From the NCBI RefSeq assembly GCF_003671495.1, contig NZ_RCHN01000006.1, forward strand, positions 124,001-188,000: 64,000 nucleotides of DNA. Reading direction: 5' to 3'. This document shows, one piece after another, positions 56,987 through 61,544 of this stretch. The stretch is from Ketobacter sp. (GTDB lineage: Bacteria; Pseudomonadota; Gammaproteobacteria; Pseudomonadales; Ketobacteraceae). The position numbers and the translations under genes were made by a program. Below the pieces are notes generated by a model. The model made no database searches and had not been told where the DNA came from. It saw only the letters and a program-made list of their open reading frames with translations. How positions within the stretch are numbered: the stretch's first letter is position 1; each line of letters begins with the position of its first letter.

Positions 56987-57775
56987 GTGGCCAATTTATC
57001 GCAAACCGCCCGCCATGAACACATTGTGGAACTGGTGAACGCCAAGGGTTTTGTCTCGGTAGAGGACCTGGCGAGCCATTTTGAGGTAACTCCGCAAACC
57101 ATGCGTCGGGACATCAACACCCTGGCGGCTGAGAACCGGGTGCGACGCTTTCACGGTGGTGCCAGCGCCGCCCCCAGTACCCAGAACATCGAGTACGCCC
57201 AGCGCAAGTTGCAGCAATCCCCGGAAAAGAACCGCATCGCCAAGCGGGTGGCGCAACACATACCGGATCATGCTTCGCTGTTCATTAATATCGGCACCAC
57301 CAACGAAGCCATCGCCAAGGAGCTGCTGGACCACACCGGCCTCAAGATCATCACCAACAACCTGCACGTGGCCGCCATCGTCAGCGGCAAAGAGGATTTC
57401 GACGTCATCATCGCCGGCGGTAAGGTGCGCAGCCGGGACGGCGGCATCATCGGTGAAGCCACCATGGATTTTGTGTCCCAGTTTCGCACCGACTTTGGCA
57501 TCATCGGCATCTCCGGCATTGACGACGACGGTTCCCTGCTGGATTTCGATTACCAGGAGGTGCGGGTGGCCCAGGCCCTGATCAAGAATTCCCGGCAGGT
57601 ATTACTGGCCTGCGATCACACCAAATTTGGCCGTCACGCCATGATCAAACTGGGGCAGGTTTCTGACCTGAATGTGCTGGTGACCGACCGCGCACCGGAC
57701 GAGCATTTCCGCAGCCTGCTGCAGGAAGCGGGGGTCACCACCCTGGTGGCGGACGAAGACCTGGAATCAAACTGA
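56987..57775 (+). CDS. glpR: DeoR-family glycerol-3-phosphate regulon repressor
   Basis: The 262-residue repressor has an N-terminal DeoR helix-turn-helix (RHEHIVELVNAKGFVSVEDL and HFEVTPQTMRRDINTLA) and a sugar-phosphate-binding C-terminal domain (IGTTNEAIAKELL, CDHTKFGRHAM). It begins with GTG at 56987. It sits between glpK and glpD, the usual place for GlpR. It should release DNA when glycerol-3-phosphate accumulates. pdxH follows 26 bases later. Confidence 0.95.
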   Translation: MANLSQTARHEHIVELVNAKGFVSVEDLASHFEVTPQTMRRDINTLAAENRVRRFHGGASAAPSTQNIEYAQRKLQQSPEKNRIAKRVAQHIPDHASLFINIGTTNEAIAKELLDHTGLKIITNNLHVAAIVSGKEDFDVIIAGGKVRSRDGGIIGEATMDFVSQFRTDFGIIGISGIDDDGSLLDFDYQEVRVAQALIKNSRQVLLACDHTKFGRHAMIKLGQVSDLNVLVTDRAPDEHFRSLLQEAGVTTLVADEDLESN

Positions 57776-57801
57776 GCACAACCTGACGGACGGAATCTGG
57801 C

Positions 57802-58437
57802 GTGGACATTAGCGATATGCGGCGCGAATTTGAAAGCGCCGGACTCAACCGAGAAGATCTTGATAACGACCCCATACAGCAGTTTGAACGGTGGTTTCAG
57901 GATGCCCGCGACGCCGGTATCCTGGAACCCAACGCCATGTCCCTGGCCACGGTGGACGCCACCGGCCAACCGACGGTGCGCACGGTGCTGCTGAAGTATT
58001 TTGATGAACAGGGCTTTGTCTTCTTCACCAATTACGAAAGCCGCAAAGCCCACAATATAGAGCACACCCCCAAAGCCGCCGCCCTGTTCCCCTGGCTGGG
58101 GTTGAACCGACAGGTCTCGATACAGGGCAGCGTACGCCGCATCAGCAAAGCGGAATCCTTCAAATACTTTTCCTCACGGCCGCGGGAAAGCCAGATTGGC
58201 GCCTGGGTTTCCGACCAGAGTAAAGCCATCAGCTCCCGCGGTCTGCTGGAGCAAAAACTGGCGGAAATGAAGCGCAAGTTCGGTGAAGGGCACATTCCGT
58301 TACCCACCTTCTGGGGTGGCTACCAGATTGTGCCGCAACGGGTGGAATTCTGGCAGGGGCGCCCCCATCGCCTGCATGACCGGTTTGAGTATCTGCGTGA
58401 CGGGGAGCAATGGGGCATCCAGCGCCTGCAGCCCTGA
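57802..58437 (+). CDS. pdxH: Pyridoxamine 5'-phosphate oxidase
   Basis: The 211-residue FMN enzyme oxidises pyridoxine/pyridoxamine phosphate to pyridoxal phosphate. Visible family segments are AMSLATVDATGQPTVRTVLL, GFVFFTNYESRKAHNI, FSSRPRESQIGAWVS and the C-terminal RLQP. The start is a GTG at 57802, which gives the family's usual MDISDMRREF N-terminus; an ATG five codons later is the alternative. It lies within the glycerol cluster, but it is a general cofactor gene. Confidence 0.96.
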   Translation: MDISDMRREFESAGLNREDLDNDPIQQFERWFQDARDAGILEPNAMSLATVDATGQPTVRTVLLKYFDEQGFVFFTNYESRKAHNIEHTPKAAALFPWLGLNRQVSIQGSVRRISKAESFKYFSSRPRESQIGAWVSDQSKAISSRGLLEQKLAEMKRKFGEGHIPLPTFWGGYQIVPQRVEFWQGRPHRLHDRFEYLRDGEQWGIQRLQP

Positions 58438-58514
58438 GCCAGGCTCGGCTGCCATGATAAAAATTACCGATTCCAATTAGGCACTATGCTGCGGACAGCG
58501 TGGCACCGGGCTCA

Positions 58515-58554
58515 GTAATATCCTTTTTACCATTCAGGCCAATAAGGATATTAC
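58515..58554 (+). promoter_or_regulatory. Stem-loop that pairs the ribosome-binding site of the 58556 gene
   Basis: GTAATATCCTT (58515-58525) and AAGGATATTAC (58544-58554) are perfect 11-bp complements separated by 18 bases. The right arm contains the AAGGA Shine-Dalgarno sequence and ends one base before the ATG at 58556. In RNA the stem would hide the ribosome site. In DNA the same repeat could be an operator. It may be a thermosensor, a translational switch or a repressor site; sequence alone does not decide. Confidence 0.6.
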
Positions 58555-58555
58555 C

Positions 58556-59617
58556 ATGTCTACCCATCGAATTATGGACAAGTGCCACCGTCGCCGCCCC
58601 CGCCGAGAAGTTCGCCCCGCCCGGGAAGGGGATGAAAACCTGGGCGTGCTCAAGCTGCTGCCTGGCAAATGGAAAAGCCAGGACACCGGCTGGAACATGA
58701 TTGCCCTGCCCACCGAAGGCCCCAAGTTCAGTTATCGACTGCTCATGAACCAGTATAGTGAGACTCTGGAATTTCTGGAGGTGGACGATAACATCCCCAA
58801 TCGCGGCGTACTCCGCAACGACCCCAACAAACAGGAAGAGGATAAGGACCCGGACCAATTCCTGATTGGTCTGGACTACAAGCAGGTGATTACCCAGGTC
58901 GCCGCCGAAGACCGCATGATTGCCATTCAGGAGGACGGCAGTGAAGACATCGTGGCAAGCGGCTTGCAAGGGGATGTGCCTTCCACCATCCATCACGAAC
59001 CCGGGCTCTTCCTGCACATGAAGGATGAACGTTCCAACAACGTGGATATTGCCCGCCTTGCCACCATTCCACACGGAGATTCAGTGCTGGCACTGGGCAC
59101 CAGCAAAGTGATCGAGGATCCGGAGGCCCTGAAGAAATTCAGAATCCCGGGCATTAACGGCCTTCCCATCGGCGTCAACCCGGAGCTGCCGCCACTGCCG
59201 TCGGAATTACCCACCCGCCAAAAGCTCGGCTACATGACGCCCTATTCCCACTATGTGGAGAAACCGTTCAGGGGCACTGTGCCAGACACAGTGTCCGGGT
59301 TTCCCGGCTTCAACCCAAAAGATCCTCACGACCTGCTGAACGTCGCCAATCGCAACCTCGAATTCAAGCGCATCACCCGGCTGATGTTTGATACGGAAAT
59401 CGAAAGCGGTGGCATCGTCAACATTCCGTTTGTGGTGAAGCAGGCCAACGCGGCCTCGATGAAGTCCACATTCTGGATTCAGGAGCTCGAGGGCAAGTTG
59501 CGTATGCAGTATTTGCAGGTCGTGATGCTGGATTTCTTCCCCCGCTTTGATGGCTTGCCCGGCTTGATCCGCTGGCCCCACATCAGCATCAACACACTGG
59601 AAAAAGTCTCCCGATAA
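58556..59617 (+). CDS. Possible haem-binding protein, uncharacterised
   Basis: The 353-residue cytoplasmic protein lacks signal and membrane segments. An opening basic stretch (HRRRPRREVRPAR) precedes LGVLKLLPGKWKSQDTGWNMIALP. That phrase resembles the LxxLxGxWxGxGxN start of beta-barrel proteins often annotated as haem-binding or peroxidase-like. A repeated barrel strand pattern and the segment IHHEPGLFLHM follow, with His residues that could bind haem. I am not sure of the family. Translation may be controlled by the stem-loop at 58515-58554. It sits between pdxH and glpD but need not be part of the glycerol pathway. Confidence 0.6.
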   Translation: MSTHRIMDKCHRRRPRREVRPAREGDENLGVLKLLPGKWKSQDTGWNMIALPTEGPKFSYRLLMNQYSETLEFLEVDDNIPNRGVLRNDPNKQEEDKDPDQFLIGLDYKQVITQVAAEDRMIAIQEDGSEDIVASGLQGDVPSTIHHEPGLFLHMKDERSNNVDIARLATIPHGDSVLALGTSKVIEDPEALKKFRIPGINGLPIGVNPELPPLPSELPTRQKLGYMTPYSHYVEKPFRGTVPDTVSGFPGFNPKDPHDLLNVANRNLEFKRITRLMFDTEIESGGIVNIPFVVKQANAASMKSTFWIQELEGKLRMQYLQVVMLDFFPRFDGLPGLIRWPHISINTLEKVSR

Positions 59618-59653
59618 GTCAACCGGGGCAGTCCATCCTGCTCACCCGCCAGC

Positions 59654-59686
59654 AAAGCCGGTGGCCCCAGCCGCCGGCTTTCTTCT
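59654..59686 (+). terminator. Intrinsic terminator downstream of the 58556 gene
   Basis: AAAGCCGG (59654-59661), a 12-base loop and CCGGCTTT (59674-59681) form an 8-bp stem followed by a pyrimidine-rich tail (CTTCT). It lies about 37 bases after the gene's stop and isolates it from glpD. Confidence 0.7.
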
Positions 59687-59789
59687 CCAGAAGGCCTTTT
59701 CACGGGCCCACTCCACGCCCCTTCATTGAAGCCCCAAAGCCCCTTACCGCTTGTCAGCCCCCGTTATGCGCGCTTACTGTCACGAAATC

Positions 59790-59833
59790 TTCGTTTTATT
59801 TCTATTGCGAAAACAAACGAAAGCAAATAAACT
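59790..59833 (+). promoter_or_regulatory. glpD promoter with GlpR-like operator sequences
   Basis: TTGCGA (59805-59810), 17 bases and TAAACT (59828-59833) form a plausible promoter with a leader of about 43 bases. TTCGTTTT (59790-59797) and CGAAAACAAACGAAA (59808-59822) overlap it and resemble the TTCG/CGAA half sites of GlpR operators. Similar motifs precede glpR. GlpR repression of glpD is the expected biology; the sites are inferred. Confidence 0.5.
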
Positions 59834-59882
59834 TGAATAACACGCTGTACGAAACGATTTGATTACTAAAGGTAGCGCAATC

Positions 59883-61544
59883 ATGCACAGCCACCCCCCT
59901 CTTCAAAGCGTCATCCATGGCACCGCCACCGACCGGAAAAATGTCAACTTATCAAACAGTTATGACGTTTTCGTGGTGGGTGGCGGCATCAATGGCTGCG
60001 GCATTGCGGCAGAAGCGGCGGGCCGGGGGATGAAAGTGGGGCTCTGCGAACAGAGCGACCTGGCCGCGGCAACCTCCTCCGCCAGCAGCAAATTGATTCA
60101 CGGCGGCCTGCGCTATCTGGAACATTACGAATTCCGACTGGTACGTGAAGCCCTGGCGGAGCGGGAGATCCTGCTACACAAGGCCCCCCACCTGATCAAA
60201 CCCCTGCGTTTCGTGTTGCCCCATCGCCCCCATTTGCGCCCGGCCTGGATGATTCGTACAGGCCTGTTCCTGTACGATCACCTGGCCCGCCGCAACAGGA
60301 TCCCGGGCTCCCGGGGATTGGCATTCCATGGCAATGACCAGCATCCCGCCAACCCTTTACAGGATTCCATCGTCAAGGGTTTCGAATACTATGATTGCCG
60401 GGTGGACGATGCCCGCCTGGTGATCAGCAATGCGTTGTCCGCCCACGAGCAGGGAGCCGACATCCAGGTGCAAACCCGCTGCCTCAATGCCCGGCGACAG
60501 GATGGCCTGTGGCACATCACGTTGCAGCACATTGCCAGCGGTCAGCGCCAAACCTGCACCGCCAAAACACTGGTGAACGCCGCCGGCCCCTGGGCCCAGC
60601 GCTTCATCGAGCAGAATCTGCAGGCGACCTCGCCGCGTAAAATAAACCTGATCAAGGGCAGCCACCTGGTCACCCGCAAACTGTACCAGGGCGATCAGGC
60701 CTACATCCTGCAAAACGAAGATCAGCGCATCGTCTTCGTGATTCCCTATCAGGATGATTTCACCCTGATCGGCACCACCGACAAAGCCTATCATGGCGAT
60801 CCCGCCCAGGTGGCCATGGATGCCGAAGAGGAAGCCTATCTGCTGGACATCGTTAATCGCCATTTCAAGCACGCCATCAGCAGCGAAGACGTGCTGTGGC
60901 GCTACTCCGGTGTTCGCCCCCTGTGTGATGACGAGTCGGACTCCCCCTCGGCCATGACCCGGGATTACACGCTGGAATTACAGACCAATGAGCAGAACCA
61001 AGCCCCCTTGTTGAGCATCTTCGGCGGCAAGATCACCACCTACCGCAGGCTGGCCCAGGCCGCCATGAAAGCGCTTGCGCCCCACCTGGAGAACTTGCAA
61101 CCGGCGGTGACGGATGCTGCCGTGCTGCCCGGCGGGGACATCGGTGACACGGATTTCGATGTCTGGGTGGCTCTGGTGCAACATCAATACGAGTGGCTGG
61201 ATGGCGAACACTGCCGCCGGTTGTGTAACGCCTACGGAACGCGCATTCACACACTGCTTGCAGATTGTCGGCAGCTTACTGATCTTGGCGAGCATTTTGG
61301 TGCCGGGCTGTTCCAGCGGGAAGTGGATTTCCTGATGCAACAGGAGTGGGCGCACAGCGCCGACGACATTCTCTGGCGCCGCAGCAAACTGGGGCTGCGC
61401 CTGAGCCCGCAGGAAGCGCAACACTTGTCAGATTATATAGCGCTCAGGTTAAAGGCTAAGGCCAAGCAGGTGGATGCCGGCCCGGCACAAGCCCAGTTGC
61501 CTTGCACTCCAACCATTGAGCCGGCATTGCGACAGGCCGTTTGA
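59883..61544 (+). CDS. glpD: Aerobic glycerol-3-phosphate dehydrogenase
   Basis: The 553-residue FAD enzyme oxidises glycerol-3-phosphate to dihydroxyacetone phosphate and feeds electrons to quinone. The dinucleotide motif is DVFVVGGGINGCGIAAEAAGRG. Other family segments are SSASSKLIHGGLRYLEHYEF, LINLIKGSHLV region and IFGGKITTYRRLAQ. The N-terminus has an extra 35 or so residues before the FAD fold compared with E. coli GlpD. ATG at 59883 has AAAGG about 10 bases upstream. It is membrane-associated but has no TM helix. It works downstream of glpK and is probably repressed by glpR. Confidence 0.95.
   Translation: MHSHPPLQSVIHGTATDRKNVNLSNSYDVFVVGGGINGCGIAAEAAGRGMKVGLCEQSDLAAATSSASSKLIHGGLRYLEHYEFRLVREALAEREILLHKAPHLIKPLRFVLPHRPHLRPAWMIRTGLFLYDHLARRNRIPGSRGLAFHGNDQHPANPLQDSIVKGFEYYDCRVDDARLVISNALSAHEQGADIQVQTRCLNARRQDGLWHITLQHIASGQRQTCTAKTLVNAAGPWAQRFIEQNLQATSPRKINLIKGSHLVTRKLYQGDQAYILQNEDQRIVFVIPYQDDFTLIGTTDKAYHGDPAQVAMDAEEEAYLLDIVNRHFKHAISSEDVLWRYSGVRPLCDDESDSPSAMTRDYTLELQTNEQNQAPLLSIFGGKITTYRRLAQAAMKALAPHLENLQPAVTDAAVLPGGDIGDTDFDVWVALVQHQYEWLDGEHCRRLCNAYGTRIHTLLADCRQLTDLGEHFGAGLFQREVDFLMQQEWAHSADDILWRRSKLGLRLSPQEAQHLSDYIALRLKAKAKQVDAGPAQAQLPCTPTIEPALRQAV

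Follow-up and report, generated by a model that had tools for sequence, protein, structure and literature searches.

Why does a gene for a haem-binding-like protein start directly behind a long inverted repeat that includes its own Shine-Dalgarno (SD) site? We examined whether this repeat, found in the 64,000-nucleotide stretch of Ketobacter DNA analysed here (the window), is best read as an RNA stem, as a DNA operator or as a chance complementarity.

The inverted repeat and its surroundings

The features of the locus are listed in Table 1, and the sequence of positions 58514-58558 is AGTAATATCCTTTTTACCATTCAGGCCAATAAGGATATTACCATG. The two arms form Watson-Crick pairs at 11 of 11 positions, eight of them A-U, and one base (C58555) separates the right arm from the ATG; allowing one mismatch, the pairing extends to 14. 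An earlier note had described just this arrangement, a perfect 11-bp repeat with an 18-base loop and AAGGA in its right arm, and had proposed to fold the leader in silico. The fold reproduces the repeat: the 71-nt leader reaches -17.6 kcal/mol (z -3.54, none of 200 shuffles equally good) with a stem identical to the inverted repeat, and the 40-nt hairpin by itself reaches -12.6 kcal/mol (z -5.10, again 0 of 200).

Table 1. Features around the inverted repeat (positions in the window).
Feature	Position	Strand	Remarks
Pyridoxamine phosphate oxidase gene, pdxH-like, upstream	57802..58437	+	no terminator-like site in 58380-58640
Upstream block	58454..58493	+	SP163 agrees at 28 of 40 bases
Ten-codon ORF, hypothetical	58486..58518	+	ATG to TAA, stop inside the left arm
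Left arm GTAATATCCTT, anti-SD	58515..58525	+	with A58514, 12 of 12 bases identical in SP163
Loop, 18 bases	58526..58543	+	length and sequence not conserved; 41 bases in SP163
Right arm AAGGATATTAC	58544..58554	+	contains the SD AAGGA (58544-58548)
heme_bind_FMP (NF040572) gene, 353 codons	58556..59617	+	profile match

The gene matches its family profile with an E value of 4.3e-78 and 262.7 bits (cut-off 150), which bears out the label "haem-binding-like" of the earlier note. Pfam families were not detected in the product at E values up to 0.1, one match to a solved structure (E 0.21) was disregarded, and a narrow full-text literature search for the family by name found no paper. The downstream gene, which we take to be glpD-like, carries DAO and DAO_C domains. 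In the relative SP163 a pdxH match is followed by the heme_bind_FMP gene and by a glpD-like start, the last one assigned by eye. Terminator-like sites are also absent from the corresponding SP163 stretch, and an intrinsic terminator was therefore rejected; with no such site after pdxH and before the gene in either species, both arms would be part of any read-through RNA. The upstream block contains AAAAATTACC and TTAGGCACT and is a possible promoter or regulatory site; a sigma-54 promoter in TTAGGCACT was rejected by eye, as the spacing from GG to GC is right in SP163 only. By eye we also noted a strong inverted repeat CCCACCATAGTG ... CACTATGGTGGG on the 3' side of the gene in SP163 (L003:4091-4117).

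Conservation in relatives

The gene was found in 2 of the 57 genomes of the relatives search (its own genome and SP163) and in 1 of 369 genomes of the class (its own). Four of six genus genomes are devoid of it; in three of these the sequence after pdxH is unlike, and in the fourth pdxH itself was unmatched. A contig search yielded 40 loci, SP163 at 89% and the 39 others at 42-53%. Eight plasmid records matched, all with less than 60% identity, and among the viral contigs searched no match was confirmed. Outside the two genus members the gene is scattered over Nitrospira, Nitrosomonas, Paracoccus, Methylobacterium and others, a patchy spread that suggests horizontal transfer.

The SP163 leader consists of AGTAATATCCTT, then 41 unrelated bases, then AAGGAGATTACT. 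Its stem pairs UAGUAAU-A-UCCUU with AAGGA-G-AUUACUA, so that ten of the window's 11 pairs are unchanged, one is replaced by an A.G mismatch and two outer pairs (A-U and U-A) are gained. The pairing, whose loss in close relatives that keep the gene had been named beforehand as evidence against the stem, is thus retained in the one such relative (1 of 1), with a different loop. No pair has changed on both sides, and with a left arm that does not differ between the two leaders available, covariation could not show. Conservation of the right arm is nothing special: the last 7 nt preceding the start agree with SP163 at 5 of 7 positions, and in a set of 63 orthologous leader pairs (76 protein pairs minus 13 without a common start or with too little flank) this value was the most frequent. 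When both species were required to mask the SD, the heme_bind_FMP leader ranked first among these 63 pairs; a third high scorer (window position ~38155) was set aside, as it seems to be a spurious start within a different reading frame. As a whole the SP163 leader (96 nt) does not exceed its shuffles in stability (z -0.39, with 62 of 200 equally good).

In distant homologues a perfect SD-overlapping stem of at least 9 bp was absent in 38 of 38 cases, the longest having 8 bp (L009); the scan took perfect stems only and gives SP163 a value of 6 by the same measure, so that a stem with a central mismatch would be missed. The set excludes L041 (a partial match) as well as L001 and L002 (the window and SP163), and its start codons were picked by script, several of them being doubtful.

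Frequency of SD-covering stems

How rare such stems are was estimated from 680 kb of the own genome, which provided 292 leaders whose SD is 4 bases or longer. A stem qualified if it was perfect, had at least 11 bp, covered the SD and ended no more than 7 bases from the start. For comparison, 60,000 swapped leaders were assembled, each with its upstream 82 nt from one own-genome leader and its last 18 nt from another; self-pairings were kept among them, so that the counts are slightly too high. Stems of at least 9, 10 and 11 bp occurred in 77, 27 and 9 swapped leaders, respectively. Among the real leaders 2 of 292 carry a qualifying stem, compared to 0.044 expected; we take these two to be the leaders of the heme_bind_FMP gene and of a GAF-domain gene outside the window. 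In a smaller swap with 4,992 leaders and one mismatch allowed, a score of 11 was never reached and scores of 9 or 10 were reached 14 times. Shuffling the upstream part of the leader itself gave a score of 11 in 0 of 4,002 cases, and the same treatment of SP163, whose own score is 9, gave at least 9 in 16 of 4,002. A wider list of 608 own-genome and 223 SP163 ORFs (ATG or GTG starts with an SD-like motif) contained seven entries with a score of at least 9, headed by the heme_bind_FMP gene and the GAF-domain gene (both 11); the other five were four GTG starts, with scores of 9-10, and the SP163 copy of the heme_bind_FMP gene (9).

Since 9 of 60,000 swapped leaders show such a stem, a chance origin is improbable for a stretch of 64 kb. 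For a single gene selected from an entire genome, chance has to be reckoned with: about 1.5e-4 per leader amounts to somewhat less than one such stem per genome, and this stem was picked after being seen. The complementarity could then have no regulatory role and have been kept in SP163 through shared ancestry, a reading consistent with the ordinary stability of the SP163 leader and with the absence of the perfect stem from the distant homologues. Against it stand the excess of observed over expected stems in the 292 leaders and the identity of the left arm in SP163, while the 20 bases preceding it (58494-58513) agree in 7. Taken together we regard chance as an unlikely explanation.

Possible control of translation and its alternatives

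The reading we favour, at about even chances, is a locus-specific RNA hairpin that acts in cis in the pdxH-heme_bind_FMP leader and controls translation, probably a genuine on/off control of one protein and of an ordinary kind. Transcripts would start upstream of ~58520, either by read-through from pdxH or from a promoter in the block 58454-58493; the left arm GUAAUAUCCUU would pair with the SD-to-start region AAGGAUAUUAC and keep ribosomes off, so that the gene would be silent on transcripts that include the left arm. Something other than simple heat would open the stem, such as a trans-acting factor or a ribosome that terminates within the left arm. SD masking was predicted for each of six 5' ends tried between 58300 and 58520, with unpaired probabilities at 37°C of 0.15, 0.01, 0.00, 0.00 and 0.00 for the five SD bases (5' ends 58300, 58438, 58497, 58510 and 58515), and in the SP163 model five of six SD bases are paired with 5' ends at 2870, 2919 or 2930. 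In RNA starting at 58526 the modelled values become 0.98, 0.99, 0.07, 0.02 and 0.37, an incomplete opening, since the GG then finds other pairing partners. With a ribosome footprint placed over 58501-58531 the model yields much the same values, 0.97, 0.99, 0.07, 0.04 and 0.55. Thus the SD is predicted to open in part when the transcript lacks the left arm or when a ribosome sits on this arm; the SP163 site opens less fully in the model under the same two steps. Several points count against control by a hairpin. The sequences offer no double compensatory change, and one central pair is lost in SP163; the SP163 leader is of ordinary stability, and none of the 38 distant homologues has the perfect stem. 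The conservation of the left arm could also have another cause. The claim of the earlier note that an RNA stem sequesters the SD holds as far as the predicted pairing and its retention in SP163 are concerned, whereas the suggested melting with heat is unsupported.

One form of the opening step, contained within the hairpin reading, would involve the ten-codon ORF: a ribosome ending at the TAA at 58518 would cover the left arm and free the SD. The haem protein would then be made only when the ORF is translated; this translation itself, or a pause on a peptide that is otherwise not conserved, would serve as the signal. At the corresponding positions SP163 has TTG and TAG/TAA, and the peptides are unlike; short ORFs placed like this are, in our judgement, not rare by chance. 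We consider such gating improbable. A related arrangement is mgtQ-mgtB of Salmonella, where, as reported (PMC8092293), an intergenic stem-loop hides the ribosome binding site (RBS) of the downstream gene, translation of mgtQ was shown to release the mgtB RBS, and acidic codons matter. Both loci combine a stem-loop over the RBS with a short ORF upstream (8 amino acids in mgtQ as given there, 10 codons here), but here one simple stem is present and the peptide is not conserved.

The left arm may instead double as the -10 element of a promoter, so that short transcripts are translated and long read-through ones are silent. The candidate consists of TAATAT (58516-58521) and CGGACA (58492-58497), 18 bp apart, with transcripts expected to start near 58528. 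Among the sigma-70-like sites of the intergenic region it ranks second, it would account for the conservation of the left arm without covariation, and in an RNA starting at 58526 or 58528 two SD bases of the five are freed, a third in part. Its score of 6.61 lies, however, slightly below the 90% quantile of the background (6.72; 400 random 122-nt stretches of the window, with textbook promoter weights), the SP163 counterpart scores 4.64, close to the background median of 4.38, a scan against a stricter consensus gave no promoter in either of the two species, and SP163 RNA from 2942-2950 leaves the SD only partly open; a toggle between two transcripts is therefore decidedly unlikely. SD-masking stems are known to silence long transcripts of phage T4 gene e and of some insertion-sequence transposases, and here too the SD would be masked by a left arm that only the long transcripts contain, although the internal promoter is only weakly predicted in our case. 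As a DNA operator, the arms would be half-sites for a repressor of the heme_bind_FMP gene alone. Conservation of the left arm at 12 of 12 positions without covariation fits such a site. The change in spacing from 18 to 41 bases would be hard to accommodate for a DNA-binding dimer and free for an RNA loop, and since the arms still pair in SP163 despite the 41-base spacing, an RNA stem is favoured over a spaced operator. The palindrome occurs at a single place in six genus genomes (spacings of 10-40, a pattern that does not include the wider SP163 copy), by which a repeat family or REP-like element was also rejected. The 12-base arm with at most one mismatch is no commoner than a backwards control (4 vs 14 in the own genome, 83 vs 104 in the six genomes), and a regulon operator was rejected on this ground; these counts argue against an operator shared by several genes but leave a repressor of one gene untouched. 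The operator, raised earlier as the alternative to the RNA stem, is thus weakened by the spacing and by the absence of other copies, and we rate it as quite improbable.

An RNA thermometer, in which an AU-rich stem melts with heat, is suggested by the base composition of the stem and by its place, as simple thermometers have a hairpin over the SD. FourU and ROSE elements likewise hold the SD in a hairpin just upstream of the start codon; they differ from the perfect 11-bp stem found here, which is predicted to stay closed to 70°C and has no Rfam match, and the heme_bind_FMP gene is not known to be a heat-shock gene. Rfam families, including riboswitches, gave no match in 57000-60000 at E values up to 1, and a riboswitch or other known RNA was rejected on the same basis. 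In a ViennaRNA series from 4 to 70°C, run without a known thermometer as positive control, the mean unpaired probability of the SD rose from 0.03 at 37°C to 0.09 at 70°C (0.35 at 70°C in SP163). Because the modelled SD stays closed to 70°C, the melting with temperature proposed in the earlier note is disfavoured and a simple thermometer was rejected as highly improbable; such modelling is reported to separate thermometers poorly (PMC2896394). Control by an SD-masking hairpin, if confirmed, would add translational control to a heme_bind_FMP gene and leave the general picture of leader hairpins unchanged, and the short leader makes an easily tested system.

The GAF-domain gene is located 12 kb away, about 6.7 kb past the end of the window (L096:14600-14690 = G000:C43:194600-194690). 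It carries a 12-bp SD-masking stem, GGAATACTCCTG / CAGGAGTATTCC, which ends directly before its ATG. Its leader showed no match at an Rfam cut-off, RNAalifold on the leaders of the six genus members returned three pairs only, and at least three of the six have broken pairs in the stem. All six leaders contain TACTA and, folded singly, show an SD region that is mostly paired; in SP163 one pair of the stem has become A-T instead of T-A and another G.U instead of A-U.
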